NCBI GenBank assembly: GCA_902631595.1
Contig: CACOZH010000006.1
Coordinates: forward strand, 1-35,285
Direction of reading: 5' to 3'
Length of the DNA: 35,285 nt
DNA from: an uncultured Pelagibacteraceae bacterium
GTDB taxonomy: Bacteria; Pseudomonadota; Alphaproteobacteria; Pelagibacterales; Pelagibacteraceae
Shown here: in pieces, positions 6,760-21,700 of the stretch
Layout of the letters: the number at the start of each line of letters is the position of its first letter
How positions within the stretch are numbered: the stretch's first letter is position 1
Translations under genes and position numbers: made by a program
Notes under the pieces: generated by a model
Databases searched by the model: none
Seen by the model: the letters and a program-made list of their open reading frames with translations, nothing else
Told to the model about the DNA's origin: nothing

Positions 6760-7806
6760 ATGAAAAAAAATATTTTAATAATTTCATCCAAAGAGAATTA
6801 CGTAAGAGGAAAATTATTTCTGAGTGATCTAAAAAGAAAATATTCAATTTCATATATTGATTATTCAGGAAATTTTTTTTTAAAAAATTTAAAATTATTT
6901 AAAATATTGCTCTTAAAGTTTGACTTAATATTTATCCTATGGCCTTTATGGAGTTCATTTTTCATATTGAAATTATTATGTTTGTTTAAGAATAAGCCAA
7001 TAATTTATGATGCTTTTACTTTAACACACGAAGATTATCTTGATAACTTTAGAGAACCCAATTTTTTTGTTAAAAAATTTTATAAAATAATTGACAATTT
7101 TATTTTTAAAAACTCAAGCGCTCTTGTTACTGACACTATTTTTCATAAAAATAAAATATTAAAATTGATAAATACTGAAAAAAAAATTGAGGTAATTGAG
7201 GTGTCGCAAAAAAATTTAAAAACCTTTAACAAATTGAAAAATAAAAATAAATTTAATTTAGTGCATGCTGGAGCTAATAGAAAATGTCATGATATTCCAA
7301 AAATGATAAATATGATAAGTAAGCTACCAAAAAAGATTAAATCTAAGATTCATTTCAAAATAATAACAATCGATTATTTTAATAACTACAGAAATTTAAT
7401 TAAAAATCTTAATTGTGAAAATTATATTCAAGTAATAAAACATCTTAAATTTAATCAATATCTTAAAATAATTAAAAATTCTGATATCTGTTTAGGTACA
7501 TTTGGTAGTGGCAGCAAAGCAAAAAGTATAATTAGTAACTTTATTGTTACAAGTATTAATTATGGTAAAGTTGTTATTACATCAAATACCCCTGCAGCTA
7601 AACATTATTTAGGTGATAGTAAAAGTATAATTTTGTTAAAAAAACCAGAAATTTTAAATTTTAAAATATTTTTTGATAAATATATTAATTCAATAAAGTT
7701 TAGAAAATCAGTTACAGGGCATTCAAAAAAAATTTTCAATAAAAATTTTCAAGCATCTATAAATCTTAAAAAATTAAATAGATTAATTATAAACTGCTTG
7801 GAATAA
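6760..7806 (+). CDS. Putative GT-B glycosyltransferase
   Basis: A 348-residue Lys/Asn-rich protein. It looks like a divergent GT4-type enzyme: an N-terminal Rossmann-like half (NILIISSKENYVRGK, then strands and a membrane-proximal hydrophobic region at residues 45-90), a middle linker, and a C-terminal half with FNLVHAGANRKCHDIPKMI, DICLGTFGSGSKAKS, and a region NYGKVVITSNTPAAKHYL where the GT4 donor-binding E-x7-E would lie. The classical E-x7-E is not obvious. It is therefore called a glycosyltransferase from overall layout and neighbourhood rather than from catalytic residues. Its 3' end overlaps the convergent amidase gene by 20 bp. Confidence 0.65.
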   Translation: MKKNILIISSKENYVRGKLFLSDLKRKYSISYIDYSGNFFLKNLKLFKILLLKFDLIFILWPLWSSFFILKLLCLFKNKPIIYDAFTLTHEDYLDNFREPNFFVKKFYKIIDNFIFKNSSALVTDTIFHKNKILKLINTEKKIEVIEVSQKNLKTFNKLKNKNKFNLVHAGANRKCHDIPKMINMISKLPKKIKSKIHFKIITIDYFNNYRNLIKNLNCENYIQVIKHLKFNQYLKIIKNSDICLGTFGSGSKAKSIISNFIVTSINYGKVVITSNTPAAKHYLGDSKSIILLKKPEILNFKIFFDKYINSIKFRKSVTGHSKKIFNKNFQASINLKKLNRLIINCLE

Positions 7807-8572
7807 TTTTTCTAAGTTTAAGTGGTAATTTTAAATTTATATTTGAGTAAATTACACCAATACCTTTTTTTTTAATTTTAAGAATTTTACCATCAGGAGA
7901 AATAATAACTGTATGACCATATGTTTCTCTTTTTTTTGTGTTTTTGCCAAATTGATTTGGTGCAAATATATAACAAAAATTTTCGATAGCTCTTGCTTTT
8001 AACAAAGCTAGCCAATGTTTTTTTCCAGTGAGTTTTGTAAACGCAGATGGAACGCTAATAAACATTAAATTCTTTTTTGATAATTTTCTGTATAACTCAG
8101 GAAACCTCAAATCATAGCATATTGTCAAACCTAATCTGCCCCAGGGCAATTTGACATTAACAAGCCTATTTCCTGGCTTATAAGTTTTGCTTTCTTTATG
8201 ATGCTCTTTATTTGGAAGATTTACATCAAACATTTTAATTTTATCATAATAATTTTCAATCTTTCCCTTAGGATTTATCATAATAGATCTATTCCTATAT
8301 TTTGTTTTATCCTTGATTGGTAACGATCCTATTAATATCCATTTTTTATTTTTTTTTGCAATTTCTTTAACTTTTTTTATTAAGGGATCATCATTCATTC
8401 TATATGTATTTTTAAATAATAATTTTTTTTCACTAGTTATAATGGATGATGTTTCTGGAGTTATAATTAAATCTGCTTTGTTTTTTATAGATAGATTTAT
8501 TAATTTTATTATTTGTTTACAATTTTTAATGTAATTTTCGCCTGCTGAAGATTGAATACAAGCAACTTTCAT
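7787..8572 (-). CDS. Carbon-nitrogen hydrolase (nitrilase superfamily, Nit1/Nit2-like amidase)
   Basis: A 261-residue cytoplasmic amidase with the full Glu-Lys-Cys triad: Glu40 (ITPETSS), Lys111 (YDKIKMFDVNLP) and Cys152 (GLTICYDLRFPELYR). The segments FDVNLP, SAFTKLTGKKHW and LLKARAIENFCYI resemble the Nit1/deaminated-glutathione amidase and omega-amidase branch more than N-carbamoylputrescine amidase. It hydrolyses a C-N amide bond of a small carboxamide; the substrate is not certain. It overlaps by one base the stop of the ABC permease upstream (TAATG-type junction), so it is the last gene of the transporter transcript. A role in metabolising an amide brought in by that transporter is possible but not demonstrated. 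Confidence 0.88.
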   Translation of the reverse strand: MKVACIQSSAGENYIKNCKQIIKLINLSIKNKADLIITPETSSIITSEKKLLFKNTYRMNDDPLIKKVKEIAKKNKKWILIGSLPIKDKTKYRNRSIMINPKGKIENYYDKIKMFDVNLPNKEHHKESKTYKPGNRLVNVKLPWGRLGLTICYDLRFPELYRKLSKKNLMFISVPSAFTKLTGKKHWLALLKARAIENFCYIFAPNQFGKNTKKRETYGHTVIISPDGKILKIKKKGIGVIYSNINLKLPLKLRKIIPSSL

Positions 8573-9243
8573 TAGTAATTATATCGTCTTTCTAAAAATT
8601 TAATTAAATTATGAATTAAAAATGTCATAAAAAGATAAATACTTCCAGCAACAATAAAAACCTCTATAGGTTTAAAAGTTGTTGAAATTATATATTTTGC
8701 TACTCCTGTTAAATCCATTAAAGTGACTGTGCTGGCGAGAGATGTACCCTTTAACATTAAAATAATTTCATTACCGTATGCGGGTAAGGACTGTTTAATT
8801 GCAATTGGAATTTGTATCTTATAAAAAATTATTTTACTCGAGATACCAAGGCTTTTTCCAGCTTCAATATATCCTTTTTTAATTGTTTGAAATGCTGATC
8901 TTAAAATTTCTGATGTGTAAGCACCTGTATTTAACGCAAAAGCAATTATTGCACACCAATATGGCTCTTTTAATATAACCCATAAAATACTATTTCTAAT
9001 GAATTCAATTTGTCCAAAACCGAAATAAATTATGAATATTTGAACAAGTAAAGGGGTTCCTCTAAAAACATAAGAATAACCATATGCAAATTTATTTATT
9101 ATGATATTTTTACTCATTCTCATAACAGCAAAAAATAATCCTATAAACAAACCAAAAAATAATGACATTGATAAAAGTTTTAGTGTAATTATGGTTGCGC
9201 TTAACAACCTTGGAAAACTATTAATCATTAATTCAAAATCCAT
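8572..9243 (-). CDS. Polar/basic amino-acid ABC transporter permease (OccM/HisM-like)
   Basis: A 223-residue integral membrane protein of the HisM/OccM type, with about five hydrophobic segments. It contains the inner-membrane permease signature with the EAA loop EAGKSLGISSKIIFYKIQIPIAIKQSLP (residues about 127-155), which contacts the ATPase, and the N-terminal VFRGTPLLVQIFIIYFG region of the PAAT family. It is coupled by one overlapping base to the preceding permease and forms the heterodimeric channel with it. The partner receptor is the gene at 9982-10833. No ATP-binding subunit is encoded next to it. Specificity (basic amino acid or opine-like) is inferred from the receptor. Confidence 0.9.
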   Translation of the reverse strand: MDFELMINSFPRLLSATIITLKLLSMSLFFGLFIGLFFAVMRMSKNIIINKFAYGYSYVFRGTPLLVQIFIIYFGFGQIEFIRNSILWVILKEPYWCAIIAFALNTGAYTSEILRSAFQTIKKGYIEAGKSLGISSKIIFYKIQIPIAIKQSLPAYGNEIILMLKGTSLASTVTLMDLTGVAKYIISTTFKPIEVFIVAGSIYLFMTFLIHNLIKFLERRYNY

Positions 9244-9935
9244 TAAAAGCCCTTGCTATATTTTGTTTCTAATCTGTTTATTAATTTCATGCTTAAAAAT
9301 GTTAGTAGTAAGTATAAAACTGCAGCAAAAGAATAAAAAAATAATGGGTCTCTAGTTGAGCCTGCTGCAACATAAGATTGTCTCATTATTTCAACTAATC
9401 CGGTTACTGAAATCAAAGACGTATCTTTTAATGTAATTTGCCAGACATTACTTAGGTTTGGTATCGCCAACCTTAACATTTGCGGTAAAATAATTTTGTA
9501 AAATTGTATATGTTTTTTTATTCCTAATGCTTTAGCCGCTTCAAATTGGCCTTTGTCGATTGATTGTATAGCACCTCTAAATACTTCAGTAGAATAGGCT
9601 CCAGAAATAATTCCAATCGCAAATGAACCTGTGATAAATGCATTTATTTCTATATAATCATAATAACCAAACATGGATGCAACAAACATAATTGCACCAC
9701 TGCCACCAAAAAAAAATAAATAAATTACCAGAAGCTCTGGAACACCTCTAATAACTGTGGTGTATGAATTACCAATTAAGTTAAGTAATTTGTGCTTTGA
9801 TAATTTTAAAGGTGTGAAAATTAATGCAAAGAAAAAACCAATAAGCATAGCCGTTATTGAAACAGCTATAGTCATCAGAGTAGCATAAAATAATTCGTCT
9901 CCCCAACCTGTTTTTCCAAATGCTAGAAGTTCCAT
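9243..9935 (-). CDS. Polar/basic amino-acid ABC transporter permease (OccQ/HisQ-like)
   Basis: A 230-residue membrane protein, the OccQ/HisQ-type partner of the downstream permease. It has five or so membrane segments, the VIRGVPELLVIYLFFFG motif near residue 60, and the EAA loop EAAKALGIKKHIQFYKIILPQMLRLAIP (residues about 133-160) followed by the typical SLISVTGLVEIMR. The ATG at 9935 is preferred since the family normally begins a few residues before the first membrane helix. The gene lies 46 bp downstream of the receptor gene and overlaps the next permease by one base. It is part of a receptor-permease-permease set lacking a local ATPase. Confidence 0.9.
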   Translation of the reverse strand: MELLAFGKTGWGDELFYATLMTIAVSITAMLIGFFFALIFTPLKLSKHKLLNLIGNSYTTVIRGVPELLVIYLFFFGGSGAIMFVASMFGYYDYIEINAFITGSFAIGIISGAYSTEVFRGAIQSIDKGQFEAAKALGIKKHIQFYKIILPQMLRLAIPNLSNVWQITLKDTSLISVTGLVEIMRQSYVAAGSTRDPLFFYSFAAVLYLLLTFLSMKLINRLETKYSKGF

Positions 9936-9981
9936 AAAGATTGGCGACTATATATATTATAATCGCCAAATCTAAAATTAA

Positions 9982-10833
9982 TTACATAGAGGCGTCAAAA
10001 CCGAACCACTTAGTTGCGATTCTGCTTATGTCACCATTTTTTCTTGCTAGGTTAATAGCTTTATTGAAATCATTTAAAAGTTTTGCATCTCTTTCACCGA
10101 TTGCACCACTTCCACCTTTTCTAATTCCAACTCCTACACCATTTCCAAATGCACCACCTGAAAATGTTGGTCCAACAAGCACAACTGGTTTTCCAGATTT
10201 TTCAGCATAGTCTGTGAACGCTACTGCAGCTGCCAAAGCAACATCACATCTTCCAGATGCTAGATCAAGGTTGACTTCATCTTGGGTTTTGTAAGTTCTT
10301 ACATTCACGCTACCAACATCACCTGACTCTAAAAAATTTTGGTGGATAGTTGCAGTTTGAACACAAACTGTTTTACCTGCTAATGCGCTTTCAATAGTTT
10401 TAAGTGCTTTTTTTACAGATGATCCCCCTAGAGTTAAGTTTATTCCCTCTGGAGTATTCATTCCTTCAAGGCTTGATCCTTTCATTACTGCCAAGGATGC
10501 AACCTCGTCTGCATATCCTTGAGAAAAATTAATTACTTTTAATCTTTCATCAGTAATTGACATTCCTGCCATAATAACATCAAACTTTCTCATCAATAAA
10601 GCTGGTATCATACCGTCCCAGTCCTGCTCAACGATCTCACATTGTTGACCAATGTATCTGCAAAGAGTCCAAGCTAATTCAACTTCAAATCCAATTAATT
10701 TTCCAGATGCATCTTTAGAATTCCATGGAGGATAAGCTCCTTCAGTTCCAATTTTTATTTTATCGGCATATACATTGCCAATAATAAATAAAGAAGCTAA
10801 AACTGAAATAATAGTTTTTTTGAATATATTCAT
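9982..10833 (-). CDS. Periplasmic amino-acid/opine-type solute-binding protein (OccT/HisJ family)
   Basis: A 283-residue secreted receptor. Residues 1-23 are a Sec signal peptide ending NVYA. The mature start IKIGTEGAYPPWN and the segments GFEVELAWTLC, QDWDGMIPALL, AGMSITDERL and INFSQGY are those of the polar-amino-acid receptor family; the QDWDGMIPALL form resembles OccT/NocT (octopine/nopaline) and arginine-type receptors. The segment ESGDVGSVNVRTYKTQDEVNLDLASGRCDVALA closes the ligand cleft. It probably binds a basic or opine-like amino acid. A strong Shine-Dalgarno sequence precedes it, as expected for a protein needed in excess over its permeases. A 61 bp gap separates it from the speDE fusion gene upstream. 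Confidence 0.92.
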   Translation of the reverse strand: MNIFKKTIISVLASLFIIGNVYADKIKIGTEGAYPPWNSKDASGKLIGFEVELAWTLCRYIGQQCEIVEQDWDGMIPALLMRKFDVIMAGMSITDERLKVINFSQGYADEVASLAVMKGSSLEGMNTPEGINLTLGGSSVKKALKTIESALAGKTVCVQTATIHQNFLESGDVGSVNVRTYKTQDEVNLDLASGRCDVALAAAVAFTDYAEKSGKPVVLVGPTFSGGAFGNGVGVGIRKGGSGAIGERDAKLLNDFNKAINLARKNGDISRIATKWFGFDASM

Positions 10834-10839
10834 TATTTT

Positions 10840-10845
10840 CTCCTT
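10840..10845 (-). promoter_or_regulatory. Shine-Dalgarno sequence of the solute-binding protein gene
   Basis: The minus strand reads AAGGAG 6 bp before the ATG at 10833 (minus-strand context AAAGGAGAAAATAATG). It is one of the best ribosome binding sites in the window, where most genes are joined by overlaps. It supports the start and high expression of the receptor. Confidence 0.75.
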
Positions 10846-10894
10846 TAATAAAAAAAATAGTATTTCACAAAAAAAGGAATTTAAAAAGAATAAA

Positions 10895-11935
10895 TTAGTG
10901 ATTTATTGATGTATAGAAATTCCAAGAACTATCAAAACTTGGAATATAAACTCTATCAAGGGTAGCATTTCCAAAGTTTTTGTTGAAAACATCCTTCCAA
11001 TTTTCGACCTGTTTTGGCCTCTTATCTTGGCTTCCGACCTGTGCAGTAACTGCACCATTAGGTTTGAGAACTCTGATTATTTGATCCATATTTTTTGATG
11101 CCAAATCAATACAAAATTGATCGTCATTTAAGTCAATATAAATTTTATCGTAAGTATCTGTTTCAACTTTCTTTATACTTTCAAAGGCATCTCCCCAGAC
11201 ACATTTTACAGAATTTTTCTCAGTAGCCTTTTGACCAATGGTACCAAGATGTCTATCACAAACTTCAACGACTTCAGGGTCTAATTCATACCAATCTATA
11301 AATCCAAAGTTCTTCGAAATACACTCTCTTGCAACTCCACCATCTCCTCCACCAATTATAGCAGCTCTATCTTTAGAGGGATTTAATTTTAAACCAGAAT
11401 TTACAAATGTTGAACTATATAAATGTTCATCGCATGATGCTACTTGTAAATCTTTATCAATAAATAGAGATTTACCAAATTCCTCTAAATCTAAAATCTG
11501 TACATGCTGACCAACTTTCGAAATAAAATCCTCAAGCACATCATTTACAATATATGACTTTTGCATACCAGGAGAACTCGAAGTATCAAAATAATTTTCA
11601 ACTGTATTACGATCAAAAGATTTTTTGACAATTCTCTCAAATTTTATCTCATTTTTTATTACATCCAGTGCAACACTTGGAGAAACCTTTCCACATGTAA
11701 AGAAATCAAAACTTATAATACCGTGCTCTGGAAATGTGTGAAAGCTTATGTGACTTTCTGCAAGAAGAGCAACTAGTGTAAAGCCTTGTGGTTCAAATTT
11801 ATACTTAGAAATATTTAATACTGTAACTTTTGCTTTATCAGCTATTTTGTAAACTAAATTCTCGAAAAAAGATGGTTTATACTCGCCATTTGTACCTATA
11901 ATATCGAGAGTTATGTGCTCCCCAACTTTAACCAT
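10895..11935 (-). CDS. speD-speE: Fused S-adenosylmethionine decarboxylase - aminopropyltransferase (SpeD-SpeE)
   Basis: A 346-residue two-domain enzyme. Residues 1-122 are a prokaryotic-type AdoMet decarboxylase: Ser61 in ESHISFHTFPE is the self-cleavage site that becomes the pyruvoyl group, with His66 and Cys81 (DFFTCG) at the spacing of Thermotoga SpeD (Ser63/His68/Cys83). Residues about 125-346 are an aminopropyltransferase: GGGDGGVARE (residues 195-204) and WYELDPEVVEVCDRHL bind decarboxylated AdoMet. The acceptor side is unusual: the normal YHE is YSS, and the DSTDPxGP-type catalytic loop reads DLNDDQF. The product is spermidine or a related polyamine, with MTA as by-product. It lies 6 bp after the class II aldolase gene in a run of MTA-processing genes. 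Fusions of this sort are known in some bacteria. Confidence 0.92.
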   Translation of the reverse strand: MVKVGEHITLDIIGTNGEYKPSFFENLVYKIADKAKVTVLNISKYKFEPQGFTLVALLAESHISFHTFPEHGIISFDFFTCGKVSPSVALDVIKNEIKFERIVKKSFDRNTVENYFDTSSSPGMQKSYIVNDVLEDFISKVGQHVQILDLEEFGKSLFIDKDLQVASCDEHLYSSTFVNSGLKLNPSKDRAAIIGGGDGGVARECISKNFGFIDWYELDPEVVEVCDRHLGTIGQKATEKNSVKCVWGDAFESIKKVETDTYDKIYIDLNDDQFCIDLASKNMDQIIRVLKPNGAVTAQVGSQDKRPKQVENWKDVFNKNFGNATLDRVYIPSFDSSWNFYTSINH

Positions 11936-11941
11936 AAAAAA

Positions 11942-12604
11942 TTATCCTCTCTTATAACCTTTTACTTTTTCCAAAACTTTTTGCATCTCTGCAAAATTAA
12001 GATTCTTTGGCTCTCCTAGCTTTATCGCAAGAAAGTATTGGTGGCAAATGTTTTCTACTTCTTGTGCAAGTTCAAATGCCTTGCTCAAACTTTCATCAAA
12101 TGCAATCTGACCGTGATTTGCCATCAAGCAAGCTTTTCTGTTTTCTAAAGCAATTAAAATATTTTTAGATAATTCCTTTGTTCCAAATGTTGCATATTCT
12201 GCACATTTTATATCGTCTCCTCCCATAAGAGCTATCATATAATGAAATGGAGGAATAGTTTTTCTATGAGTTGATATTGCTGTAGCATGAGGAGAATGAG
12301 CGTGAACAATAGCTTTGGCTTCTGGCTTCTTTCTGTATATATCTTGATGAAATCTCCATTCTGATGAAGGATTCAATCCTGAGTTTGCAATTTTTAAATT
12401 ATCGTATTCTGTGTCTAAAGACATAAAAACTATATCTGATAATTTCATTCTTTGATACATAACTCCTGAGGGGGTTATATAGAAACCATCTTCTCCATCT
12501 ATTTTTACTCTAACAGATAAATTTCCTGATCTAAGTGGAGATAGATTTGTTGAGTTAAGTTTAAGTGAAAAGTCTATAACTTCCTGTTTTAAATCTTCTT
12601 TCAT
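11942..12604 (-). CDS. Class II (zinc) aldolase, probably 5-methylthioribulose-1-phosphate aldolase
   Basis: A 220-residue protein clearly related to FucA: SSEWRFHQDIY, HYMIALMGGDDIKCAEYATFGTKELS and the three-His zinc site. The residues are Glu82, His101, His103 (HAHSPH) and His164 (ANHG), an exact +9 offset from FucA Glu73/His92/His94/His155. It is followed by the speDE fusion and preceded by mtnA (1 bp gap). By analogy with the DHAP shunt of Rhodospirillum rubrum and some E. coli, it would cleave methylthioribulose-1-phosphate to DHAP and 2-methylthioacetaldehyde. Fuculose- or ribulose-phosphate aldolase activity, or an MtnB-type dehydratase, are alternatives, but no mtnC/mtnD is nearby. 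Family very sure; substrate inferred from the operon. Confidence 0.88.
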   Translation of the reverse strand: MKEDLKQEVIDFSLKLNSTNLSPLRSGNLSVRVKIDGEDGFYITPSGVMYQRMKLSDIVFMSLDTEYDNLKIANSGLNPSSEWRFHQDIYRKKPEAKAIVHAHSPHATAISTHRKTIPPFHYMIALMGGDDIKCAEYATFGTKELSKNILIALENRKACLMANHGQIAFDESLSKAFELAQEVENICHQYFLAIKLGEPKNLNFAEMQKVLEKVKGYKRG

Positions 12605-12605
12605 T

Positions 12606-13679
12606 TTATTTTTTAAATAATTTTTTTAATCCAGCTAATGATGCATCACATACACCTTTCTCAGTTATTAAAGCTGTTACATATTTTGCTGGAGTTACAT
12701 CAAAAGCTAAATTCATTGCTTTACTTTTTTGTGGATACACTTGGATTTTCTTTATATTGCCATTTTCATCTAGGCCTTCGATATGTGATAATTCCTCAGA
12801 ACTTCTTTCCTCAATTGGTATCTCATTGTAATCTTTAATATTCCAGTCAATAGTAGAACTTGGCAATGCAACATAAAAAGGAATTTCGTTATCATAGGCG
12901 GCTAGTGCTTTAAGATATGTTCCTACTTTGTTACAAACGTCTCCGTTGGATAAAGTTCTATCTGTTCCAACAATACACATATCTACTTCACCTCTTTGCA
13001 TTAAAATGCCACCAGTATTATCTGCAATGATTGTGTTCTTAACTCCTTCTTCATTTAATTCGTATGAAGTAAGATTTGCTCCTTGATTTCTTGGTCTAGT
13101 TTCGTCAGTCCAAACGTGCACGGGTATTCCTTTTTTATGAGCATGATAAATCGGTGAAGTTGCTGTTCCCCAATTAATTGTTGCAAGCCATCCCGCGTTA
13201 CAATGTGTTAAAATATTAACTGTATCTTTTTTTTTATTATAAATTTCCTCAATTATTTTTAATCCATTTAAACCTATATTTTCACAAAACTTTATATCTT
13301 CTTTACATATTTCGTTAGCTTCTTTTAATGCAATCTCCAAAATTTTATCACTGTTTACACCAGACAATTTCTGCATCATTCTATCAACCGCCCACTTTAA
13401 ATTGATTGCTGTGGGCCTAGAATTAATCAAATCCTCAGATGATTTTTTAAGAAATGTTTGATCATCATTTTTTAATATTGCCAATACAAGCCCATATGCT
13501 GCGGTAGCGCCTATCAATGGAGCGCCTCTAACCTCCATTTTTTTAATTGCATTTACTGCATCTGTTATTGTTCTTAATTCCTTAATTACAAATTTATGAG
13601 GCAACTTGGTTTGGTCAATAATTTTGACTAAATTGTTTTCAAACCAAATTGTTCGATATTCTTTCCCTTCAATTTTCAT
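12606..13679 (-). CDS. mtnA: S-methyl-5-thioribose-1-phosphate isomerase
   Basis: A 357-residue cytoplasmic isomerase converting methylthioribose-1-phosphate to methylthioribulose-1-phosphate. The catalytic cysteine Cys160 (THCNAGWLAT) and aspartate Asp240 (VGTDRTLSNGD) fall at the same numbers as in the Bacillus subtilis enzyme. RGAPLIGATAAYG, ETRPRNQGANLTSYEL and IPFYVALPSSTID are further family motifs that separate it from eIF2B subunits. Length is normal. It lies 2 bp downstream of the GFA gene and 1 bp upstream of the class II aldolase gene; translation is probably coupled. It takes the product of MtnP from the same operon. Confidence 0.95.
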   Translation of the reverse strand: MKIEGKEYRTIWFENNLVKIIDQTKLPHKFVIKELRTITDAVNAIKKMEVRGAPLIGATAAYGLVLAILKNDDQTFLKKSSEDLINSRPTAINLKWAVDRMMQKLSGVNSDKILEIALKEANEICKEDIKFCENIGLNGLKIIEEIYNKKKDTVNILTHCNAGWLATINWGTATSPIYHAHKKGIPVHVWTDETRPRNQGANLTSYELNEEGVKNTIIADNTGGILMQRGEVDMCIVGTDRTLSNGDVCNKVGTYLKALAAYDNEIPFYVALPSSTIDWNIKDYNEIPIEERSSEELSHIEGLDENGNIKKIQVYPQKSKAMNLAFDVTPAKYVTALITEKGVCDASLAGLKKLFKK

Positions 13680-13681
13680 AA

Positions 13682-14080
13682 TTAACTATATCTATTAAAT
13701 TTAGGTATAGATCGATCAATTTTATAATATTTCAATCTATTTTTGACAAAGATATTTTTATTTGTTTTTACTTTTAAAGATTTGTCAAACATACCAGCAG
13801 ATATTGAGGTTGTCTTAGATTTATTTACTTTAAAAAATACACTTGCGCCACATCTTAAGCAGAAACCTCTTTTAGCTTTTTTTGAAGATTTAAACCATTT
13901 TAAAGTTTTTTTACTCTGAAATTTTAAACAATCGTCATCGACTTTAGTGTAAGCAGCAAAGTTTCCATGCGTTTTCATACATTGAATACAATGGCAGTTT
14001 GATACTTCTCTGTGAAAACCTTTTGTTAAAAACTTTATACCACCACATAAACATTTGCCTTTTGAATTTATTTTTTTCAT
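13682..14080 (-). CDS. GFA/CENP-V-domain zinc protein (glutathione-dependent formaldehyde-activating-like)
   Basis: A 132-residue cytoplasmic protein with the seven cysteine zinc ligands of the GFA domain: Cys10 and Cys12 (CLCGG), Cys29, Cys31 and Cys34 (CHCIQC), Cys74 and Cys77 (CLRCG). GFA proteins were named for glutathione-dependent formaldehyde activation (Gfa/FghA-like), but most members are uncharacterised. The gene start overlaps the mtnP stop by 4 bp and mtnA follows after 2 bp, so it belongs to the MTA operon. A role with a reactive aldehyde or thiol made by the pathway is a speculation from the position. The substrate cannot be told from the sequence. Confidence 0.85.
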   Translation of the reverse strand: MKKINSKGKCLCGGIKFLTKGFHREVSNCHCIQCMKTHGNFAAYTKVDDDCLKFQSKKTLKWFKSSKKAKRGFCLRCGASVFFKVNKSKTTSISAGMFDKSLKVKTNKNIFVKNRLKYYKIDRSIPKFNRYS

Positions 14081-14949
14081 TTGATTAAAACTCTACCGGC
14101 TATATTTTTAAGTTTATCTATTGTTTTTTGAGTTCTTTTCTCTGGATCTGTTATTATTGCAACATCTAAACAATTATTTGTTGGATCATTTGGATTTATA
14201 TGATTTTCAAAATTTTCTATTAAATTTTTTATCATTTTTTTTGCTTTAGTTGCGTTTCCCAAGAGAACCTTTATCACTTGTTGTACATCAACATTTTCAT
14301 GATCTGGATGCCAACAGTCATAATCTGTTACCATTGATACAGATGCATACCTAACTTCAGCCTCTCTAGCTAATTTTGCCTCAGGCATATTAGTCATACC
14401 AATTACATCAGCATTCCATGATCTATATAAGTTTGACTCAGCCAGTGTAGAAAATTGTGGCCCCTCCATCACCACATAGGTCCCTCCTCTTTGATAATCT
14501 ATATTTTCTTTTTTAATAGCTTCTTCACATGCATCCATCAGTCCATTAGATGTAGGATGTGCCATTGATACGTGAGCAACTATCTCATCATCAAAAAAAG
14601 TTTTGTTTCTTGCAAAAGTTCTATCAATAAACTGGTCTACAATTACAAATTTCCCAGGTGGTAGGTCTTCTTTTAATGAACCAACTGCTGATACAGATAC
14701 AATATCTGTGACTCCCAATTGTTTTAATGCATCAATATTTGCTCTAAAATTAATCCTAGATGGAGAAATGAAATGACCCTTTCCATGTCTTGGAAGAAAA
14801 TATACCTCTTTATTATTATAACTTGTTTTTAAAATTTTGTCAGAAGGCTTACCCCATGAAGTAGAAATTTCTAGAAACTCTCTTTTGTCAAAACTTTCCA
14901 CATCATACAATCCACTTCCACCAATAATTGCCAATTTATTTTTTGTCAT
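14077..14949 (-). CDS. mtnP: S-methyl-5'-thioadenosine phosphorylase
   Basis: A 290-residue purine phosphorylase of the MTAP/PNP family. IIGGSGLYD at residues 8-16, the phosphate-binding RHG (54-56), MEGPQFST (161-168) and GMTNMPEA (184-191) are the family motifs. The base-recognition segment reads TDYDCW (Asp209, Asp211) as in 6-aminopurine-specific MTAP, rather than the Asn/Glu form of purine nucleoside phosphorylases. It splits MTA into adenine and methylthioribose-1-phosphate. It is first in the minus-strand operon mtnP-GFA-mtnA-aldolase-speDE and is divergent from apt, which would recycle its adenine. Confidence 0.95.
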   Translation of the reverse strand: MTKNKLAIIGGSGLYDVESFDKREFLEISTSWGKPSDKILKTSYNNKEVYFLPRHGKGHFISPSRINFRANIDALKQLGVTDIVSVSAVGSLKEDLPPGKFVIVDQFIDRTFARNKTFFDDEIVAHVSMAHPTSNGLMDACEEAIKKENIDYQRGGTYVVMEGPQFSTLAESNLYRSWNADVIGMTNMPEAKLAREAEVRYASVSMVTDYDCWHPDHENVDVQQVIKVLLGNATKAKKMIKNLIENFENHINPNDPTNNCLDVAIITDPEKRTQKTIDKLKNIAGRVLIK

Positions 14950-14980
14950 GTATATAATTTAATATATAACCTAATTAATT
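14950..14980. promoter_or_regulatory. Divergent mtnP/apt promoter region
   Basis: Only 31 bp separate the two starts. The plus strand has TATAAT at 14953-14958, suitably placed to give an apt transcript with a leader of about 15 nt. The minus strand has TATATT (14966-14961) as a possible -10 for mtnP with a nearly leaderless message. The two boxes are interleaved, so the promoters would compete or be co-regulated. No convincing -35 elements were found. Confidence 0.4.
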
Positions 14981-15508
14981 ATGAATTTAAAAGATTATAT
15001 AAGATCTATACCTGACTACCCAAAAAAGGGAATTTTATTTAGAGATATAACAACTTTAATAAAAAACGAAAAAGCTTTTTCTGAAACAATTAACCAAATT
15101 GTAAAAATATTAGAAAAACATGATTTTGACAAAATAGCTGCAATTGAATCTAGAGGATTTGTCTTTGCTTCAGCTATTTCATATCTGATGAAAAAACCAT
15201 TTATACTTTTAAGAAAAAAAAATAAATTGCCTGCTGAAAGATTTTCTGTCGATTTTAAATTAGAGTATGGTACAGCAACTATTGAAATGCACAAAGACTC
15301 TGTTTCATCAGGAGATAATGTTGTTATTATTGATGATTTAATCGCAACTGGAGGTACTGCTGAGGCTGGTGCTAAAATTATCGAAATGGCAAGTGGAAAA
15401 GTAACTTTATTTATTTTTGTAATAAATCTTTTTGATCTTGGTGGCTGTGATAAATTAATAGAAAATGGCTATAAAGTTGAAAATTTAATTGAATTTCCAG
15501 GTCATTAA
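14981..15508 (+). CDS. apt: Adenine phosphoribosyltransferase
   Basis: A 175-residue phosphoribosyltransferase that makes AMP from adenine and PRPP. The PRPP-binding motif VVIIDDLIATGGTAEAG is at residues 114-130. The N-terminal IRSIPDYPKKGILFRDITTLI and the segment ESRGFVF are typical of Apt and separate it from other PRTases. Length is normal. It is transcribed divergently from mtnP, whose reaction releases adenine, so the pair makes a complete adenine salvage step for the MTA formed by the SpeD-SpeE enzyme. The glycan operon begins 69 bp downstream. Confidence 0.96.
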   Translation: MNLKDYIRSIPDYPKKGILFRDITTLIKNEKAFSETINQIVKILEKHDFDKIAAIESRGFVFASAISYLMKKPFILLRKKNKLPAERFSVDFKLEYGTATIEMHKDSVSSGDNVVIIDDLIATGGTAEAGAKIIEMASGKVTLFIFVINLFDLGGCDKLIENGYKVENLIEFPGH

Positions 15509-15577: not shown

Positions 15578-16600
15578 ATGCAAAAAATTCTTGTAACAGG
15601 AGGTTTAGGCTTCATTGGCAGTAATTTAATAAAGCTTCTTCTTAAGAAGAAATATAATGTAATTAATTTAGACAAAGTTAGTTATTCATCAAATTTTTAT
15701 AACACAAAAAATTTTTCTAATCACAAGAATTATAAATTTATGAAATGTGACTTAACAAACAAAAAAAAACTTAATAAAATAATATTAAATTACAAGCCTA
15801 TTGGAATATTTAATTTAGCTGCTGAAACACATGTTGATAGATCAATAGATGATCCGTCACCATTTGTAAAAAGTAATATTGTAGGTCTATTCAACTTGCT
15901 AGAGGTGATCAGAAAATATCACAAATTAAACAAAAAAATAAAATTAATTCATATATCTACAGATGAGGTTTATGGCGATGTACTGACAGGAAGATCCAAA
16001 GAAAGTGATGCATACAAACCAAGCTCACCTTATGCGGCAAGCAAAGCCTCCTCTGATCATTTAGTAAATTCATATATACGAACTTATGGAATTCCAGCAA
16101 TTATAACAAATTGTTCGAATAATTATGGACCAAGACAACACCCAGAAAAGTTGATACCAAAAATGATTTACAATATTCTTAATAATAAACCTCTTCCAAT
16201 TTATGGAAAAGGATTAAACTCAAGAGAGTGGATCTATGTAGACGATCATTGTGAAGCTTTGGAAAAAATATTTAAAAAAGGAAAAATTGGAAACTTTTAT
16301 AATATTGGATCGAATATAAACGTAAATAATATTAATTTGATGAAAAAGTTATTAAAAATAATTAAAACGACTTATATGATTGGTGATAATGTTAAAATAA
16401 AATTTGTTAGTGATAGACCTGGACATGATTTAAGATATGCAATAAATAGCAATAAATTAAAAACTAAATTAAACTGGAAACCAAAAATAAATTTAGCTTT
16501 TGGACTTAAAAAAACATTTGAGTGGTATTATGAAAATCAAAAATATTTTTTAAGTTTAAACAAAAGAGATATCGTTAACAGATTAGGAAAAAAAAGATGA
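15578..16600 (+). CDS. rfbB: dTDP-glucose 4,6-dehydratase
   Basis: A 340-residue extended SDR. The NAD-binding GGLGFIGSN is at residues 8-16, the active-site triad region STDEVYGDV has Thr128-Asp129-Glu130, and the catalytic YAASK has Tyr152 and Lys156. AAETHVDRSIDDP and NNYGPRQHPEKLIP are specific for RmlB/RfbB. It converts dTDP-glucose to dTDP-4-keto-6-deoxyglucose in the cytoplasm. It is the first gene of a six-gene plus-strand operon; its stop overlaps the rfbA start (ATGA). The 69 bp gap before it (15509-15577) is AT-rich with no feature I can defend. Alternative symbol rmlB. Confidence 0.95.
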   Translation: MQKILVTGGLGFIGSNLIKLLLKKKYNVINLDKVSYSSNFYNTKNFSNHKNYKFMKCDLTNKKKLNKIILNYKPIGIFNLAAETHVDRSIDDPSPFVKSNIVGLFNLLEVIRKYHKLNKKIKLIHISTDEVYGDVLTGRSKESDAYKPSSPYAASKASSDHLVNSYIRTYGIPAIITNCSNNYGPRQHPEKLIPKMIYNILNNKPLPIYGKGLNSREWIYVDDHCEALEKIFKKGKIGNFYNIGSNINVNNINLMKKLLKIIKTTYMIGDNVKIKFVSDRPGHDLRYAINSNKLKTKLNWKPKINLAFGLKKTFEWYYENQKYFLSLNKRDIVNRLGKKR

Positions 16601-17469
16601 TTAAGAAAGGTATTATTTTATCTGGAGGAATGGGTACAAGAATGAGCCCATTGACAAAAGCAGTAAATAAACAGTTGTTACCAATTTATGACAAGCCTTT
16701 AATATTTTATCCATTATCAATTTTAATGTTATCTAATATCAAAGATATTTTAATTATTGTTAATAAAGGTCAATTAAACCAATATAGAAAAATTCTTCCT
16801 AATGGAAAAAACCTGGGAATTAAAATTAATTATATTGAGCAGCCATATCCCAAAGGTCTTCCTGATGCTTTTATATTAGGTGAAAAATTCATAGGAAGAC
16901 AAAATGTTTCACTAATTCTTGGAGATAACTTTTTTTACGGACAATATTTGAGTCAGAAGCTATTATCATGCACAAAATTAAAGTCAGGGGCAAAAGTTTT
17001 GCTTCACAAAGTTTCGAAGCCAGAATTATATGGTGTAGCAAAAGTTAACAAAAGAAATAAAATTACTAAAATTTCTGAAAAACCAAAAAAATATATTTCC
17101 GATCTTGCGATAACAGGCCTATATTATTTTGATAATAATGTTGTTAAATATGCCAAAGAGCTAAGACCATCAAAGAGAGGAGAACTAGAAATAACGGATT
17201 TACTTAATAAATATAAAATAAAAAATAAGCTTTATGCAGATTATATTGGTAGAGGCGGTGCTTGGCTAGACACAGGCTCAATTGAAGATTTTTACAAAAC
17301 ATCCTCCTTTGTCTCTGCAATTGAGAATAGGCAAGGATTTAAAATTGCATGTCTGGAGGAAATTGCTTACTTTAAAAATTGGATTGGAAAAAAACAGATA
17401 AAAAATCAAATTAAGTTTTATGGAAAGTGTGAATATTCAAAATACTTAGATAAAATTATCAATAAATGA
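16597..17469 (+). CDS. rfbA: Glucose-1-phosphate thymidylyltransferase
   Basis: A 290-residue nucleotidyltransferase that makes dTDP-glucose from dTTP and glucose-1-phosphate. The N-terminal GGMGTRMSPLTKAVNKQLLPIYDKPLIFY has the G-x-G-T-R...K pyrophosphorylase signature; GDNFFYG and GRGGAWLDTGSIEDF are typical of RfbA/RmlA. Length is exact for the family. Both junctions are 4-bp ATGA overlaps (with rfbB before and the dehydratase after), which indicates one transcript with translational coupling. Together with rfbB it gives the cell dTDP-4-keto-6-deoxyglucose. Confidence 0.95.
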   Translation: MIKKGIILSGGMGTRMSPLTKAVNKQLLPIYDKPLIFYPLSILMLSNIKDILIIVNKGQLNQYRKILPNGKNLGIKINYIEQPYPKGLPDAFILGEKFIGRQNVSLILGDNFFYGQYLSQKLLSCTKLKSGAKVLLHKVSKPELYGVAKVNKRNKITKISEKPKKYISDLAITGLYYFDNNVVKYAKELRPSKRGELEITDLLNKYKIKNKLYADYIGRGGAWLDTGSIEDFYKTSSFVSAIENRQGFKIACLEEIAYFKNWIGKKQIKNQIKFYGKCEYSKYLDKIINK

Positions 17470-18674
17470 GAAACAAAAAAATATATTATGGGAAAGCTGT
17501 ATACGACAGTAAAGAGATAAATGCTGTTTTAAAAGTTTTAAAGAATAACAGCTTAAGTTTAATTGACGGGCCTCATGTAAAAAGGCTTGAGAGAGAAATT
17601 TGTAAAATTTTTGGAAAGAAATACGCTTTGATGGTTAATTCTGGATCATCAGCAAACCTGTTGGGGCTTTCTGCTTTAAATTTTAAAAAAGGATCTGAGA
17701 TAATTACTCCAAATTTAACTTTTTCGACTACAGTTGCTCCAATTTTTCAATTAGGTTTAATTCCACGATTTATTGGAGTTGAAAAAAATAAATTTGTTGC
17801 TGAAACAAATCAAATTGAAAAGGCAATTAATAAAAAAACTGTAGCAATAATGATACCAAATCTTTTGGGAAATATACCCGAGTGGATAAAAATTAGCAAA
17901 ATTGCTAAAAAATATAACCTTAAAATTATTGAAGATTCTGCTGATACTATTGGATATACAATTAACGGAAAAAACACCGGCAGACTTTCAGATATAGTAA
18001 CAAATAGTTTCTACGCATCACATATTATTAATGGTGCTGGAACAGGTGGAATTGTATGTTTTAATGACTATAAGCTTTATCAAAAAGCAAAATTACTCAG
18101 AGGTTGGGGGAGATCTTCTGCTACATTTAATGAGTCTGAAAATATAAAAAAAAGATTTAACATTAAGATTTCAGGCATTGATTATGATGCAAAATATGTT
18201 TTTTCAGAAGCTGGATACAATTTTTTACCCTCCGAAATTTCTGCCGCTTTTGCGCTAGAACAAATTAAAAAATTAAGTAAGAATATTGAAATCAGAAATT
18301 ATAATTTCAATCAACTAAAATTATTTTTTTCTAAATATAGTAATTATTTTGATCTTCCAGAAATCAATAAAAATGTTAAAACTCCATGGCTAGCTTTTCC
18401 ACTTGTAATCAAAGATAACACAAAATTTAAAAGAAAAAATTTACAAATTTATTTGGAAAAAAATAATATACAAACAAGAACAATTTTTACAGGTAATATT
18501 CTTAAACAACCAATAATAAAGAAAAAGAATTTTAGAAAGATTGCAAATTCAGAACAAGTTTCAAATAATGTAATGAAAAATGGTTTACTGATAGGATGTC
18601 ATCAAGATTTAAAACGTGCAGATTTAAATTATATTTATAAAATTTTTAATAATTTTTTTAAGAAAATAAAATGA
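17466..18674 (+). CDS. PLP-dependent sugar 3-dehydratase (ColD/RfbH-like; His replaces the catalytic Lys)
   Basis: A 402-residue DegT/DnrJ/EryC1/StrS fold protein. At the position of the PLP-binding lysine (usual SFFPSKN) it reads SFYASHI, with His186 encoded by CAT at 18021-18023; Asp157 (IIEDSAD) is the expected pyridine-nitrogen ligand. The His for Lys exchange and the spacing match ColD (Asp159/His188) and the E1/RfbH enzymes, which remove the C3 hydroxyl instead of transaminating. The C-terminal TRTIFTGNILKQP also matches RfbH-type proteins. The cysteine cluster that binds 2Fe-2S in E1 is absent (the region after RGWGR has no Cys), so a ColD-like, glutamate-dependent mechanism is more likely. 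It sits in a dTDP-sugar operon, suggesting a dTDP-4-keto-3,6-dideoxyhexose product. Confidence 0.85.
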   Translation: MRNKKIYYGKAVYDSKEINAVLKVLKNNSLSLIDGPHVKRLEREICKIFGKKYALMVNSGSSANLLGLSALNFKKGSEIITPNLTFSTTVAPIFQLGLIPRFIGVEKNKFVAETNQIEKAINKKTVAIMIPNLLGNIPEWIKISKIAKKYNLKIIEDSADTIGYTINGKNTGRLSDIVTNSFYASHIINGAGTGGIVCFNDYKLYQKAKLLRGWGRSSATFNESENIKKRFNIKISGIDYDAKYVFSEAGYNFLPSEISAAFALEQIKKLSKNIEIRNYNFNQLKLFFSKYSNYFDLPEINKNVKTPWLAFPLVIKDNTKFKRKNLQIYLEKNNIQTRTIFTGNILKQPIIKKKNFRKIANSEQVSNNVMKNGLLIGCHQDLKRADLNYIYKIFNNFFKKIK

Positions 18675-19201
18675 AAAAAATTAAAACAAAATTTAAAGAT
18701 CTATTTTTAGTTAAAGGTGAAACACACTCTGATAATAGAGGTTTTTTTAGAGAGTTGGTTTACCAAAAAATGGTACCAAAGAAAATTGTATTTACAGTGA
18801 TTTCAAAGTCTAAAAAAAATATTCTAAGAGGGTTGCATTTTCAAAACAAAAAAGCTCAGGGCAAGTTTTTATGTGTGCTAAAAGGTAAAATTTTTGACGT
18901 TGCCGTAGATTTAAGAAAAAATTCTAAAACTTATTTAAAACATTTTAAGTGTGTACTAAGTGACAAAAATAGTACAAGCATTTATATTCCGCCTGGTTTT
19001 GCACATGGATTTTATACATTCGATAAAGAAAATATTGTTTTATATGGATGCACAAATTATAGAGATAAAAATTCAGAAAGTGGTATTATCTGGAATGATA
19101 AAAATCTAAAAATAAAATGGCCTAACAAACAGCCAATACTATCCAAAAAAGACAGATTAAACATAACACTAAAAGAATATTTATTCAGGAATGCAAAATA
19201 G
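18671..19201 (+). CDS. dTDP-4-dehydrorhamnose 3,5-epimerase-like (RfbC family)
   Basis: A 176-residue cupin enzyme. SDNRGFFREL, NILRGLHFQNKKAQGKFLCVLKGKIFDVAVDLRKNS and IPPGFAHGF are the RmlC motifs, including the catalytic His in RGLHF. The segment CTNYRDKNSESGIIWND keeps the Y and E/W/ND pattern but has R where many RmlC have a second Tyr. After removal of the C3 hydroxyl by the preceding gene it would only have C5 to epimerise, as in ascarylose synthesis. If the dehydratase is not used on the same sugar, ordinary 3,5-epimerisation to the rhamnose precursor is possible. It overlaps the gene before by 4 bp and the next by 11 bp. Confidence 0.88.
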   Translation: MKKIKTKFKDLFLVKGETHSDNRGFFRELVYQKMVPKKIVFTVISKSKKNILRGLHFQNKKAQGKFLCVLKGKIFDVAVDLRKNSKTYLKHFKCVLSDKNSTSIYIPPGFAHGFYTFDKENIVLYGCTNYRDKNSESGIIWNDKNLKIKWPNKQPILSKKDRLNITLKEYLFRNAK

Positions 19202-19994
19202 CAAATTATATTGCTTTGGAATCCATGATGATGTTTTGAGCTCTATTCAATCATTAAATTATATTCCTGTTGGACTAGGTGAAGATACAATTAGTTCAGG
19301 TTGGTTAAAAGATAATACTGGAAATCAGATTGCATCAAAAAATAAATATTATAGTGAGCTTACTTTTTATTATTGGTTATGGAAAAATAAATTTAAAGAA
19401 ATGCCAAATAATATTTGGATAGGATTTTCTCAGTACAGAAGACATTGGAAACAGAACAAAGATCAATTAGAAGTTGGATATAAACTTGAAAACGAAATTT
19501 TAAAAAAAATTCCTTTTGAATGGGAAAACTTTGAGACAATATTGCCTAATCCCATAAATATTCAAGGCCTAAAGTTTATGAAAGTCATAAAATCTGGAAA
19601 ATTAGCAATGCTAAAAAATCCTAGCGCCATATTAAAAAAAAACAGGAATATAAAATTCAATTTTGATATGATGCATGGTGTAGGAACAATGGATAAAGCA
19701 ATAAATTTATTAGATAATGACAACAAAGATGATTTTTATAATTTTGTTAATTCTAATACATCATTTAGTCCTGCGAATATGTTTATTTGTCGAAATAAAG
19801 AAAAAATAAATAATTTTTTTGAAGTTTTATTTCCTTGGCTATCAAAATGTGAAAAGCTTTTTGGATTTAACCTAGAAGGTTACGGAAAAATAAGAATTTA
19901 TGCTTTTCTATGTGAAAGGTTTTTACCTTTTTGGTTTAATAAAAACTCAAAAGTTTTAGAGTGGCCTATTATATTTCATGATTTAAGAAAATAG
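19191..19994 (+). CDS. DUF4422-family putative glycosyltransferase
   Basis: A 267-residue protein with the DUF4422 pattern: NKYYSELTFYYWLWKN near residues 44-58, WIGFSQYRRHW (about 70-80, corresponding to the G-x-x-HYRR motif), NMFICRNKEKINNFFEVLFPWL near residue 200, and RIYAFLCERFLPFWF near the C terminus. DUF4422 proteins are found in capsule and LPS loci and are thought to transfer hexoses. There is no signal peptide. It overlaps the epimerase gene by 11 bp and ends 5 bp before the reductase gene, so it is probably the transferase for the sugar made by this operon (inference). Confidence 0.8.
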   Translation: MQNSKLYCFGIHDDVLSSIQSLNYIPVGLGEDTISSGWLKDNTGNQIASKNKYYSELTFYYWLWKNKFKEMPNNIWIGFSQYRRHWKQNKDQLEVGYKLENEILKKIPFEWENFETILPNPINIQGLKFMKVIKSGKLAMLKNPSAILKKNRNIKFNFDMMHGVGTMDKAINLLDNDNKDDFYNFVNSNTSFSPANMFICRNKEKINNFFEVLFPWLSKCEKLFGFNLEGYGKIRIYAFLCERFLPFWFNKNSKVLEWPIIFHDLRK

Positions 19995-19999
19995 ATTAT

Positions 20000-21623: not shown

Positions 21624-21700
21624 TGGTAGCGGGAAGTGGGATCGAACCACTGACCTCGGGCTTATGAGTCCCGCGCTCTAACCAACTGAGCTACCCCGCC
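21624..21700 (-). tRNA. tRNA-Met (anticodon CAT, elongator type)
   Basis: A 77-nt cloverleaf with encoded CCA. It has D-arm GCTC...GAGC, anticodon loop CTCATAA, variable loop AGGTC and T-arm AGTGG-TTCGATC-CCACT. Internal promoter-like blocks and all stems are recognisable. Unusual points: the first acceptor pair is G1-U72 and the last anticodon stem pair is A31-G39. G1-C72-type pairing is missing, but the D-stem and the absence of three consecutive G:C pairs at the anticodon stem bottom favour an elongator or CAU-Ile type over initiator tRNA. CAT anticodon genes may encode Ile2 after lysidine modification, so elongator Met versus Ile(CAU) is not settled. Confidence 0.9.

Follow-up and report, generated by a model that had tools for sequence, protein, structure and literature searches.

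A SAR11 polyamine-synthesis operon with a predicted DHAP shunt for its by-product methylthioadenosine

The window analysed here is a stretch of 35,285 nucleotides from an uncultured Pelagibacteraceae bacterium, and its minus strand carries a tightly packed run of genes. In order of transcription the open reading frames encode MtnP, 5'-methylthioadenosine (MTA) phosphorylase (14077..14949, 290 aa), a GFA-domain protein (13682..14080, 132 aa), MtnA, 5-methylthioribose-1-phosphate isomerase (12606..13679, 357 aa), a FucA-type class II aldolase (11942..12604, 220 aa), predicted to act as 5-methylthioribulose-1-phosphate aldolase, and a fusion of AdoMet decarboxylase and aminopropyltransferase (SpeD-SpeE, 10895..11935, 346 aa), the putative source of MTA. 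The genes for MtnP and the GFA protein overlap by 4 bp, and the subsequent gaps measure 2 bp (GFA gene to mtnA), 1 bp (mtnA to aldolase) and 6 bp (aldolase to speDE). At a distance of 61 bp from speDE the same strand continues with an importer of the basic-amino-acid type, consisting of an ABC substrate-binding protein (9982..10833) and two permeases (9243..9935 and the ArtM-like 8572..9243), and the run ends with a carbon-nitrogen hydrolase (7787..8572). Adenine phosphoribosyltransferase (Apt) is encoded divergently on the plus strand (14981..15508), its start lying 31 bp from that of mtnP. An earlier note on this DNA had placed MtnP, MtnA, the aldolase and SpeD-SpeE in one minus-strand run with a divergent apt. 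Open reading frames and model matches confirm both statements, and the genes it named are correct; its gene list, however, overlooked the GFA gene between mtnP and mtnA as well as the ABC genes behind speDE.

Most assignments are supported by scores above the model cut-offs. MtnP exceeds those of two NCBI equivalogs (NF006492, 446.6 against 437 bits; TIGR01694, 304.2 against 274.85 bits), and the same is true for MtnA (TIGR00512, 418.5 bits, cut-off 279), Apt (TIGR01090, 195.4 bits, cut-off 185.85) and the GFA protein (PF04828, 61.8 bits, cut-off 24.3). The fusion protein combines PF02675 (91.5 bits, residues 7-109) with PF01564 (77.3 bits, residues 170-344). Its SpeD domain passes TIGR03330 (94.2 against 75.65 bits); the SpeE part is well above the Pfam cut-off of 22.9 yet remains below the NCBI SpeE equivalogs. 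Activity in E. coli was demonstrated for the SpeD-SpeE fusions of Pelagibacter HTCC1062 and HTCC7211 (PMC11107197). The downstream genes are assigned at family level: the substrate-binding protein matches PF00497 (116.1 bits) and stays under the cut-off of TIGR01096 (225 against 256.35 bits), the permeases match PF00528 (61.1 bits, cut-off 26.4, and 83.9 bits) with the second one under the ArtM cut-off (183 against 248 bits), and the hydrolase matches PF00795 (151.8 bits) and scores 213.5 with the deaminated glutathione amidase model (cut-off 500). Scans of the window yielded no excess of promoter-like sites (17 against 22.7 expected from shuffled sequence) or terminator-like sites (1 against 1.4), and Rfam reported one tRNA only and no riboswitch.

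Genome-wide comparisons were based on 247 genomes of the same order, the counts referring to related genomes rather than independent events; the window's own genome is approximately 70% complete. The gene order, whose conservation in SAR11 the earlier note had put forward as a check, is conserved: all 94 related loci in which this stretch is visible have speDE directly after the aldolase gene and in the same orientation. Of the 92 loci that show the region behind speDE, 87 have the ABC substrate-binding gene there, and apt adjoins mtnP or a nucleosidase-like gene in most SAR11 loci examined. After exclusion of 25 weak aldolase matches as paralogues (best E 3e-20), the plain aldolase is accompanied by MtnA in 132 of 135 genomes; among the three exceptions, that of G036 begins at contig base 1 and those of G194 and G167 are partial matches. 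Conversely, the 163 MtnA-positive genomes comprise 132 with the plain aldolase, 29 with an aldolase-dehydrogenase fusion (aldolase-SDR) and two with neither. A similar division is seen for the 172 SpeDE-positive genomes, where we counted 134 with the aldolase, 26 with the fusion, 10 with an MTA-nucleosidase-like gene (searched for in 222 of the 247 genomes) and two in which none was found. Not one of the 172 has two types, meaning that the cassettes are mutually exclusive. A tree built from 61 SpeDE proteins implies at least 19 changes of cassette. The aldolase gives way only to the other class II aldolase type, in a one-for-one exchange that leaves MtnA in place, or to the nucleosidase-like gene, which then stands in for MtnP and MtnA as well; because of the latter replacement the shunt proposed below must be regarded as dispensable.

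Based on gene content and order, we consider the run to be a polyamine-synthesis operon that would dispose of its own by-product via a DHAP shunt, with a probability of roughly 0.86. Judged from the active Pelagibacter orthologues, SpeD-SpeE would decarboxylate AdoMet and transfer aminopropyl groups, releasing one MTA per transfer. MtnP would then split MTA by phosphorolysis into methylthioribose-1-phosphate and adenine, the latter being converted to AMP by Apt, and MtnA would isomerise the former to methylthioribulose-1-phosphate. Family, context and replacement pattern point to the aldolase as the enzyme that would cleave this compound into DHAP and 2-(methylthio)acetaldehyde. Whereas DHAP would enter central metabolism, the aldehyde would be reduced or oxidised by a further enzyme and the methylthio sulfur would be either set free or regained as methanethiol by way of MetY. 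An O-acetylhomoserine sulfhydrylase of the MetY type is indeed present in the window's genome with a score over cut-off, and by analogy it could recapture methanethiol in this strain, as proposed for Rhodopseudomonas palustris (PMC5893883, PMC6302742). The earlier note, too, had centred on a DHAP shunt physically linked to the source of its MTA; this view is supported by the conserved order, the replacement pattern of the aldolase and the lack of MtnB and MtnD matches over cut-off described below. In other Alphaproteobacteria, MtnA and/or MtnP is encoded near the aldolase in 27 of 40 loci examined, which likewise favours it.

Other bacteria are known to have the pathway as such. What looks new here is the coupling to the source of MTA, together with a fusion protein that can take the aldolase's place. 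In R. palustris and Rhodospirillum rubrum, also Alphaproteobacteria, the DHAP-methanethiol and DHAP-ethylene shunts use the same three kinds of enzyme, MtnP, MtnA and an aldolase (Ald2), but the SAR11 genes differ in being joined to speDE. An aerobic version exists in R. palustris, where the aldehyde step is ascribed to a putative alcohol dehydrogenase and no enzyme is assigned to the conversion of methylthioethanol to methanethiol (PMC5893883). A RuBisCO-like protein, as used in the alternative R. palustris route and expected for an MTA-isoprenoid shunt, was not found in two near-complete SAR11-family genomes (G001 and G003). E. coli ATCC 25922 likewise employs MtnA and a FucA-type aldolase to form DHAP and 2-methylthioacetaldehyde, with Pfs and the kinase MtnK in place of MtnP; its mtnK-mtnA-ald2 cluster sits on a genomic island (PMC10986504). 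That cluster adjoins a sugar transporter gene instead of polyamine genes. The likeness to E. coli drawn earlier holds for the kind of enzymes but not for closest kinship, given that Ald2 clusters with E. coli FucA, apart from the SAR11 aldolases.

It might be argued that the main substrate is 5'-deoxyadenosine from radical SAM enzymes rather than MTA, as for DrdA of Bacillus thuringiensis. The DrdK/DrdI/DrdA trio of that species is identical in kind (kinase or phosphorylase, isomerase and FucA-like aldolase), clusters of mtnP or mtnK with mtnA and an aldolase occur in six phyla (PMC6079011), the E. coli shunt enzymes accept both substrates and DrdK both sugars (PMC10986504, PMC6079011). However, the SAR11 set adjoins the MTA-producing SpeDE in all 94 visible loci, and no SpeD or SpeE match was seen near the aldolase in 40 loci examined from other Alphaproteobacteria. 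DrdA serves a 5-deoxyribose pathway in a host equipped with canonical methionine salvage as well (PMC10986504), whereas SAR11 has no MtnD match over cut-off. The set probably handles both substrates, but it is unlikely to be restricted to 5'-deoxyadenosine, and we regard the latter as main substrate as improbable.

Slightly less probable still is that the protein is a sugar-phosphate aldolase, acting on fuculose-1-phosphate or ribulose-1-phosphate and present in the operon by chance, with MTA degradation stopping at methylthioribulose-1-phosphate or being handled elsewhere. This reading draws on the family itself. The aldolase matches PF00596 (176 bits) and passes no cut-off among the 25 of 29 NCBI models listed, the best of those being the FucA subfamily (193.8 bits, cut-off 264), and FucA is also the best match among solved structures, which suggests a FucA-like fold. 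The catalytic residues are in place as well: Glu82, His101, His103 and His164, correctly numbered in the earlier note, align with Glu73, His92, His94 and His155 of E. coli FucA and are invariant in 100 of 100 aligned SAR11 aldolases. In the aldolase tree a supported group unites the SAR11 proteins with two mtnA-linked aldolases from Alphaproteobacteria. Nevertheless, Ald2 and FucA cluster together, mtnA-linked and unlinked alphaproteobacterial aldolases are intermixed and the deep branches are without resolution, so that sequence cannot separate the aldolase from FucA and a FucA role is conceivable. An FGGY-type sugar kinase, as would befit such a role, occurs once in G005, where a sugar role is therefore conceivable, but is absent from G001 and G003, the other two of three near-complete relatives. 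The near confinement of the aldolase to MtnA genomes and its one-for-one exchange with aldolase-SDR while MtnA stays speak against a chance neighbour. As a separate observation, Arg25 (Thr26 in FucA) was considered as a mark of mtnA-linked aldolases and rejected: it is found in 31 of 31 SAR11 rows, in 8 of 27 alphaproteobacterial rows linked to mtnA or mtnP and in 0 of 13 unlinked rows, which makes it a lineage marker at best.

Regarding canonical methionine salvage, the earlier note had reported that no mtnB/C/D/K-type genes come after the run, and for MtnB and MtnD the search of 247 genomes extends this result. MtnD, its oxygen-using step, is over cut-off in none of them (three weak matches, 19 to 22 bits), with a model that in 14 control genomes gave some match in five and passed its cut-off in only two. 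MtnB is also over cut-off in 0 of 247 genomes (best 90.7 against 137.05 bits), its model passing in only two of 14 control genomes. Although MtnB belongs to the same superfamily and the aldolase scores 61.1 bits over part of its model (TIGR03328), it is very improbable that the protein is an MtnB-type dehydratase opening methionine salvage with unrecognised later enzymes, as this score is far under the cut-off of 137 bits, none of the 247 genomes has MtnD over cut-off and the family of the replacing enzyme includes a proven aldolase, RhaEW (PMC3870299).

The replacing enzyme, aldolase-SDR, shares both domains with RhaEW, the rhamnulose-1-phosphate aldolase/lactaldehyde dehydrogenase. Two proteins scanned pass NCBI PRK08324.1-6 (893.9 and 901.7 bits, cut-off 639) but remain under the rhamnose equivalog TIGR02632 (441 and 447.6 against 567.75 bits), and the genes adjoin mtnA or lie between mtnA and speDE. 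A strict motif pattern is matched by 17 of 20 proteins, the three others all belonging to sister family f2. Alignment of eight of the 20, including these three, shows that the SVET glutamate, the HTH pair and the later HG histidine, which we take to be catalytic positions as in other class II aldolases, are kept in all eight. In f2, MtnA occurs in three genomes only, the same three that have aldolase-SDR, and in both genomes whose locus was read completely the Apt, MtnP, MtnA and fusion genes overlap on one strand. This set comes without a SpeDE match, so that coupling to SpeDE does not hold everywhere. In f1 the fusion lies on the strand opposite to the operon in 17 of 17 loci examined and is thus not co-transcribed there. 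The overlapping f2 genes, together with the exclusive and switching cassettes, argue that the FucA-type aldolase and aldolase-SDR both cleave methylthioribulose-1-phosphate. By analogy with RhaEW, aldolase-SDR would couple this cleavage to NAD+ and yield (methylthio)acetate and DHAP, which makes it a concrete candidate for aldehyde handling; in the accessible portions of the literature surveyed no description of such a branch of MTA metabolism was found.

Taken further, the speDE site may be a place where cassettes that dispose of MTA are swapped for one another and lead to different end products, a tentative view to which we give somewhat less than even odds. The plain aldolase type would leave 2-methylthioacetaldehyde to an unlinked enzyme, other strains carry the fused aldolase-dehydrogenase at the same site, and the nucleosidase type would recover adenine only with methylthioribose left over. 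If true, the organic sulfur compound given off for each polyamine would differ even between closely related cells. SAR11 bacteria rank with the ocean's most abundant cells and probably depend on reduced organic sulfur; for this reason the fate of the methylthio group from each polyamine matters for the marine sulfur cycle. Being exclusive and switching repeatedly, the cassettes provide a natural experiment in which FucA-type and RhaEW-type aldolases are tied to one step; they suggest that the phosphorylase and nucleosidase routes are alternatives, and closely related strains with different cassettes allow a direct comparison of MTA products.

A final observation concerns the slot between mtnP and mtnA, which is occupied in 27 of the 85 loci having both genes. 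The occupants stem from unrelated families (PhyH dioxygenase, a weakly alpha/beta-hydrolase-like protein, GFA, tautomerase, TPR and others without an assigned family). With the slot empty in the other 58 loci, the GFA gene is ruled out as a general aldehyde-handling enzyme and its product is probably accessory; a role in handling the aldehyde in the window's strain specifically is possible.

A polyamine synthase and an MTA-to-DHAP gene set do lie in one run, as the earlier note had claimed, and its core reading, a DHAP shunt joined to the source of its MTA, is well supported. On the minus strand the order is mtnP, a GFA-family gene, mtnA, a FucA-type class II aldolase (11942-12604), a fusion of speD and speE (speDE), importer genes and a carbon-nitrogen hydrolase. 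The first five are tightly spaced, neighbours overlapping by as much as 4 bp or standing at most 6 bp apart, and apt is divergent from mtnP at 31 bp. The importer is an ABC system of the basic-amino-acid type, represented by one substrate-binding protein gene and two permease genes; no ATPase gene directly follows them in the window (speDE and importer genes at 8572-11935). The window is a contig of SAR11 type. Its source genome (844,361 bases, 40 contigs) is about 70% complete; the closest relatives with a name come from uncultured Pelagibacteraceae, as single cells or MAGs, and their aldolases are up to 90% identical.

SpeDE would yield spermidine-type polyamines and MTA; for the fusions of HTCC1062 and HTCC7211, others have demonstrated that both the AdoMet decarboxylase and the aminopropyltransferase function (PMC11107197). 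Adenine would be recovered through MtnP and Apt, and MtnA together with the aldolase would deliver DHAP and 2-(methylthio)acetaldehyde. The aldolase step is predicted from family, context and exchange with another class II aldolase type, and the scheme as a whole is the most likely mechanism. The genome also encodes a MetY-type O-acetylhomoserine sulfhydrylase (666.8 bits, cut-off 636), so methanethiol, if formed, could be passed on to methionine. Such recapture has been proposed for R. palustris, in a paper that calls the methanethiol-freeing enzyme unknown (PMC5893883).

Gene order was compared in 100 loci, a non-random sample: 80 were the top matches among 410 confirmed in named genomes, and 20 were chosen from a search of 247 genomes of the order; one (L083) had only a cut aldolase. 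The arrangement is conserved in this sample: speDE is the next same-strand gene after the aldolase in all 94 loci with this stretch visible, and mtnA shares the aldolase strand in 87 of 92, no more than 300 bp away in 71 and farther in 16. Among the five loci without mtnA nearby on that strand (L046, L096, L098, L106, L124), two stop within about 3.3 kb upstream and three carry other genes there. An ABC substrate-binding gene follows speDE in 87/92 loci, the exceptions (L112-L116) belonging to other genera of the family; these importer genes suggest that a basic amino acid is taken up to feed polyamine synthesis. The catalytic residues named previously (Glu82, His101, His103, His164) are right and invariant in 100/100 SAR11 aldolases. 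Tyr122 and Tyr217 are likewise invariant; their FucA equivalents, Tyr113 and Tyr209, are residues of importance in that enzyme.

Outside the order, 86 of 289 genomes of the class have an aldolase match. Of these 86 alphaproteobacterial loci 40 were read: in 27 the aldolase is accompanied by MtnA (up to 4 kb away), MtnP (up to 5 kb away) or both, several being arranged MtnP-Apt-MtnA-aldolase, and in none does the stretch contain a SpeD or SpeE match. The mtnP-mtnA-aldolase set is therefore common property of the class, whereas joining it to speDE is, as far as sampled, a trait of the order.

Searches for MtnD, MtnB and a RuBisCO-like protein brought no other salvage route to light. Neither MtnD (acireductone dioxygenase) nor MtnB exceeds its cut-off in any of the 247 order genomes: MtnD gives three weak matches (19 to 22 bits), and the listed MtnB matches are the operon aldolase itself or paralogues. 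Each model is over cut-off in 2 of 14 control genomes. A RuBisCO-like protein was not found in the two near-complete genomes searched. Some SAR11 carry second, weakly similar class II aldolases of about 230-260 residues (L218, L219, L220, L221), and such proteins account for scores of up to 90.7 bits, the best to MtnB (cut-off 137).

Three cassettes occupy the speDE site in the order: the aldolase (135/247 genomes, after removal of 25 weak paralogue matches), an aldolase-dehydrogenase fusion of about 677 residues (30/247) and a nucleosidase-like protein of 174-177 residues (14 of 222 searched). No genome has two of them. SpeDE is present in 172/247 genomes: 134 combine it with the aldolase, 26 with the fusion and 10 with the nucleosidase-like gene, and in two (G109, G238) no cassette was found. 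Similarly, the 163/247 MtnA-positive genomes divide into 132 with the aldolase, 29 with the fusion and two with neither; in one of these (G144) the stretch read stops about 2.6 kb from the contig end before speDE is reached, and the other (G168) has two weaker MtnA matches. An exact test on exclusivity within the MtnA-positive genomes gives p of about 4e-30, a descriptive value that ignores relatedness.

In family f1 the fusion adjoins speDE on the opposite strand, between speDE and mtnA, in all 17 loci read, some with additional genes on its mtnA side. The sister family f2 gave no SpeDE match, and the only three f2 genomes with MtnA are also its only three with the fusion. Two of them (L260, L261) have overlapping genes for Apt, MtnP, MtnA and the fusion on a single strand, and in the third (L262) a contig end cuts the locus with MtnA still visible beside the fusion. 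All nine speDE-bearing nucleosidase loci read have the order apt, nucleosidase-like gene, speDE, and mtnP, mtnA and the aldolase are all absent from the stretch. Three loci from genus g3 and f2 (L265, L268, L272) carry the nucleosidase-like gene with no SpeDE in the stretch; this gene is therefore not tied to SpeDE.

The cassettes change frequently. A tree was built from 61 SpeDE proteins, 35 of the aldolase type (of 134), 17 of the fusion type (of 26) and 9 of the nucleosidase type (of 10). On it the three states require 19 changes (minimum possible 2, shuffled mean 22.8, as low as 19 in 7 of 200 shuffles), a count from a single gene that could be inflated if speDE itself has been exchanged. 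When only well-supported branches are considered, the aldolase label still has to change 13 times. Different cassettes accompany SpeDE proteins that are about 3% apart (aldolase in G020, fusion in G240). If the cassettes are interchangeable in function, repeated one-for-one exchange is to be expected.

The fusion combines an N-terminal PF00596 domain with a C-terminal short-chain dehydrogenase, and its Glu and His positions are retained in 8/8 aligned proteins. Both proteins scanned exceed the NCBI PRK08324.1-6 cut-off of 639 (893.9 and 901.7 bits). RhaEW, the fusion's best-studied relative, splits rhamnulose-1-phosphate into DHAP and lactaldehyde, which it then oxidises to lactate using NAD+ (PMC3870299). 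RhaEW and the fusion share this domain pair, but the SAR11 fusion falls under the cut-off of the rhamnose equivalog TIGR02632. All three nucleosidase-like proteins scanned pass Pfam PNP_UDP_1 (49.4 to 57.3 bits, cut-off 25.1); their top NCBI models, nucleosidase and MTA/SAH nucleosidase, all remain under cut-off, and the substrate is therefore a prediction.

In a tree of 74 aldolases, the 31 SAR11 rows group with two mtnA-linked rows from other Alphaproteobacteria (100/96), joined by a third mtnP/mtnA-linked row at lower support (94/90), and E. coli Ald2 and FucA form a separate pair (100/98). Deep branches are not settled and linked and unlinked aldolases are mixed elsewhere; the tree therefore fits a shunt role without proving it.

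Earlier work describes the DHAP shunt in R. rubrum, R. palustris and E. coli and traces the trio of genes to six phyla (PMC5893883, PMC10986504, PMC6079011). The operon alone is thus a further member of a known pathway. Novelty lies in the speDE coupling and the exclusive aldolase-dehydrogenase and nucleosidase alternatives, which offer direct tests. North and colleagues reportedly surveyed the DHAP shunt in 2020 and may list SAR11. Judged by titles, abstract openings and selected passages, the papers listed on these subjects (DHAP shunt/MTA, SAR11 with MTA or 5-methylthioribose, Pelagibacter methionine salvage, MTA with rhamnulose or dehydrogenase-linked aldolases; few subscription papers among them) describe neither this operon nor a role of the fusion in MTA metabolism.

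The slot between mtnP and mtnA is variable, with one extra gene in 27/85 loci (L032-L131) from unrelated clusters: weakly alpha/beta-hydrolase-like (11), PhyH dioxygenase (5), GFA (3, plus L039), a 336-residue protein without assigned family (3), TPR (2), tautomerase (1) and a single unscanned gene (1). The window's occupant is the GFA-family gene (13682-14080). Some SAR11 have insertions between mtnA and the aldolase (L061:3147-7938, L045:5459-7932, L076:5549-6613), including a DUF1015 protein, a PLP-dependent enzyme, a 2-hydroxyacid dehydrogenase and, in L076, a sulfotransferase. The carbon-nitrogen hydrolase ending the run (7787-8572; closest model deaminated glutathione amidase, far under cut-off) is missing or substituted in many relatives. 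On the other side, apt is followed by nucleotide-sugar genes (15578-20710: epimerase/dehydratase, nucleotidyl transferase, DegT aminotransferase, dTDP-sugar epimerase, RmlD-like protein), a flank that varies across related loci. A minus-strand tRNA gene lies at 21627-21700 (Rfam RF00005, 62.6 bits).
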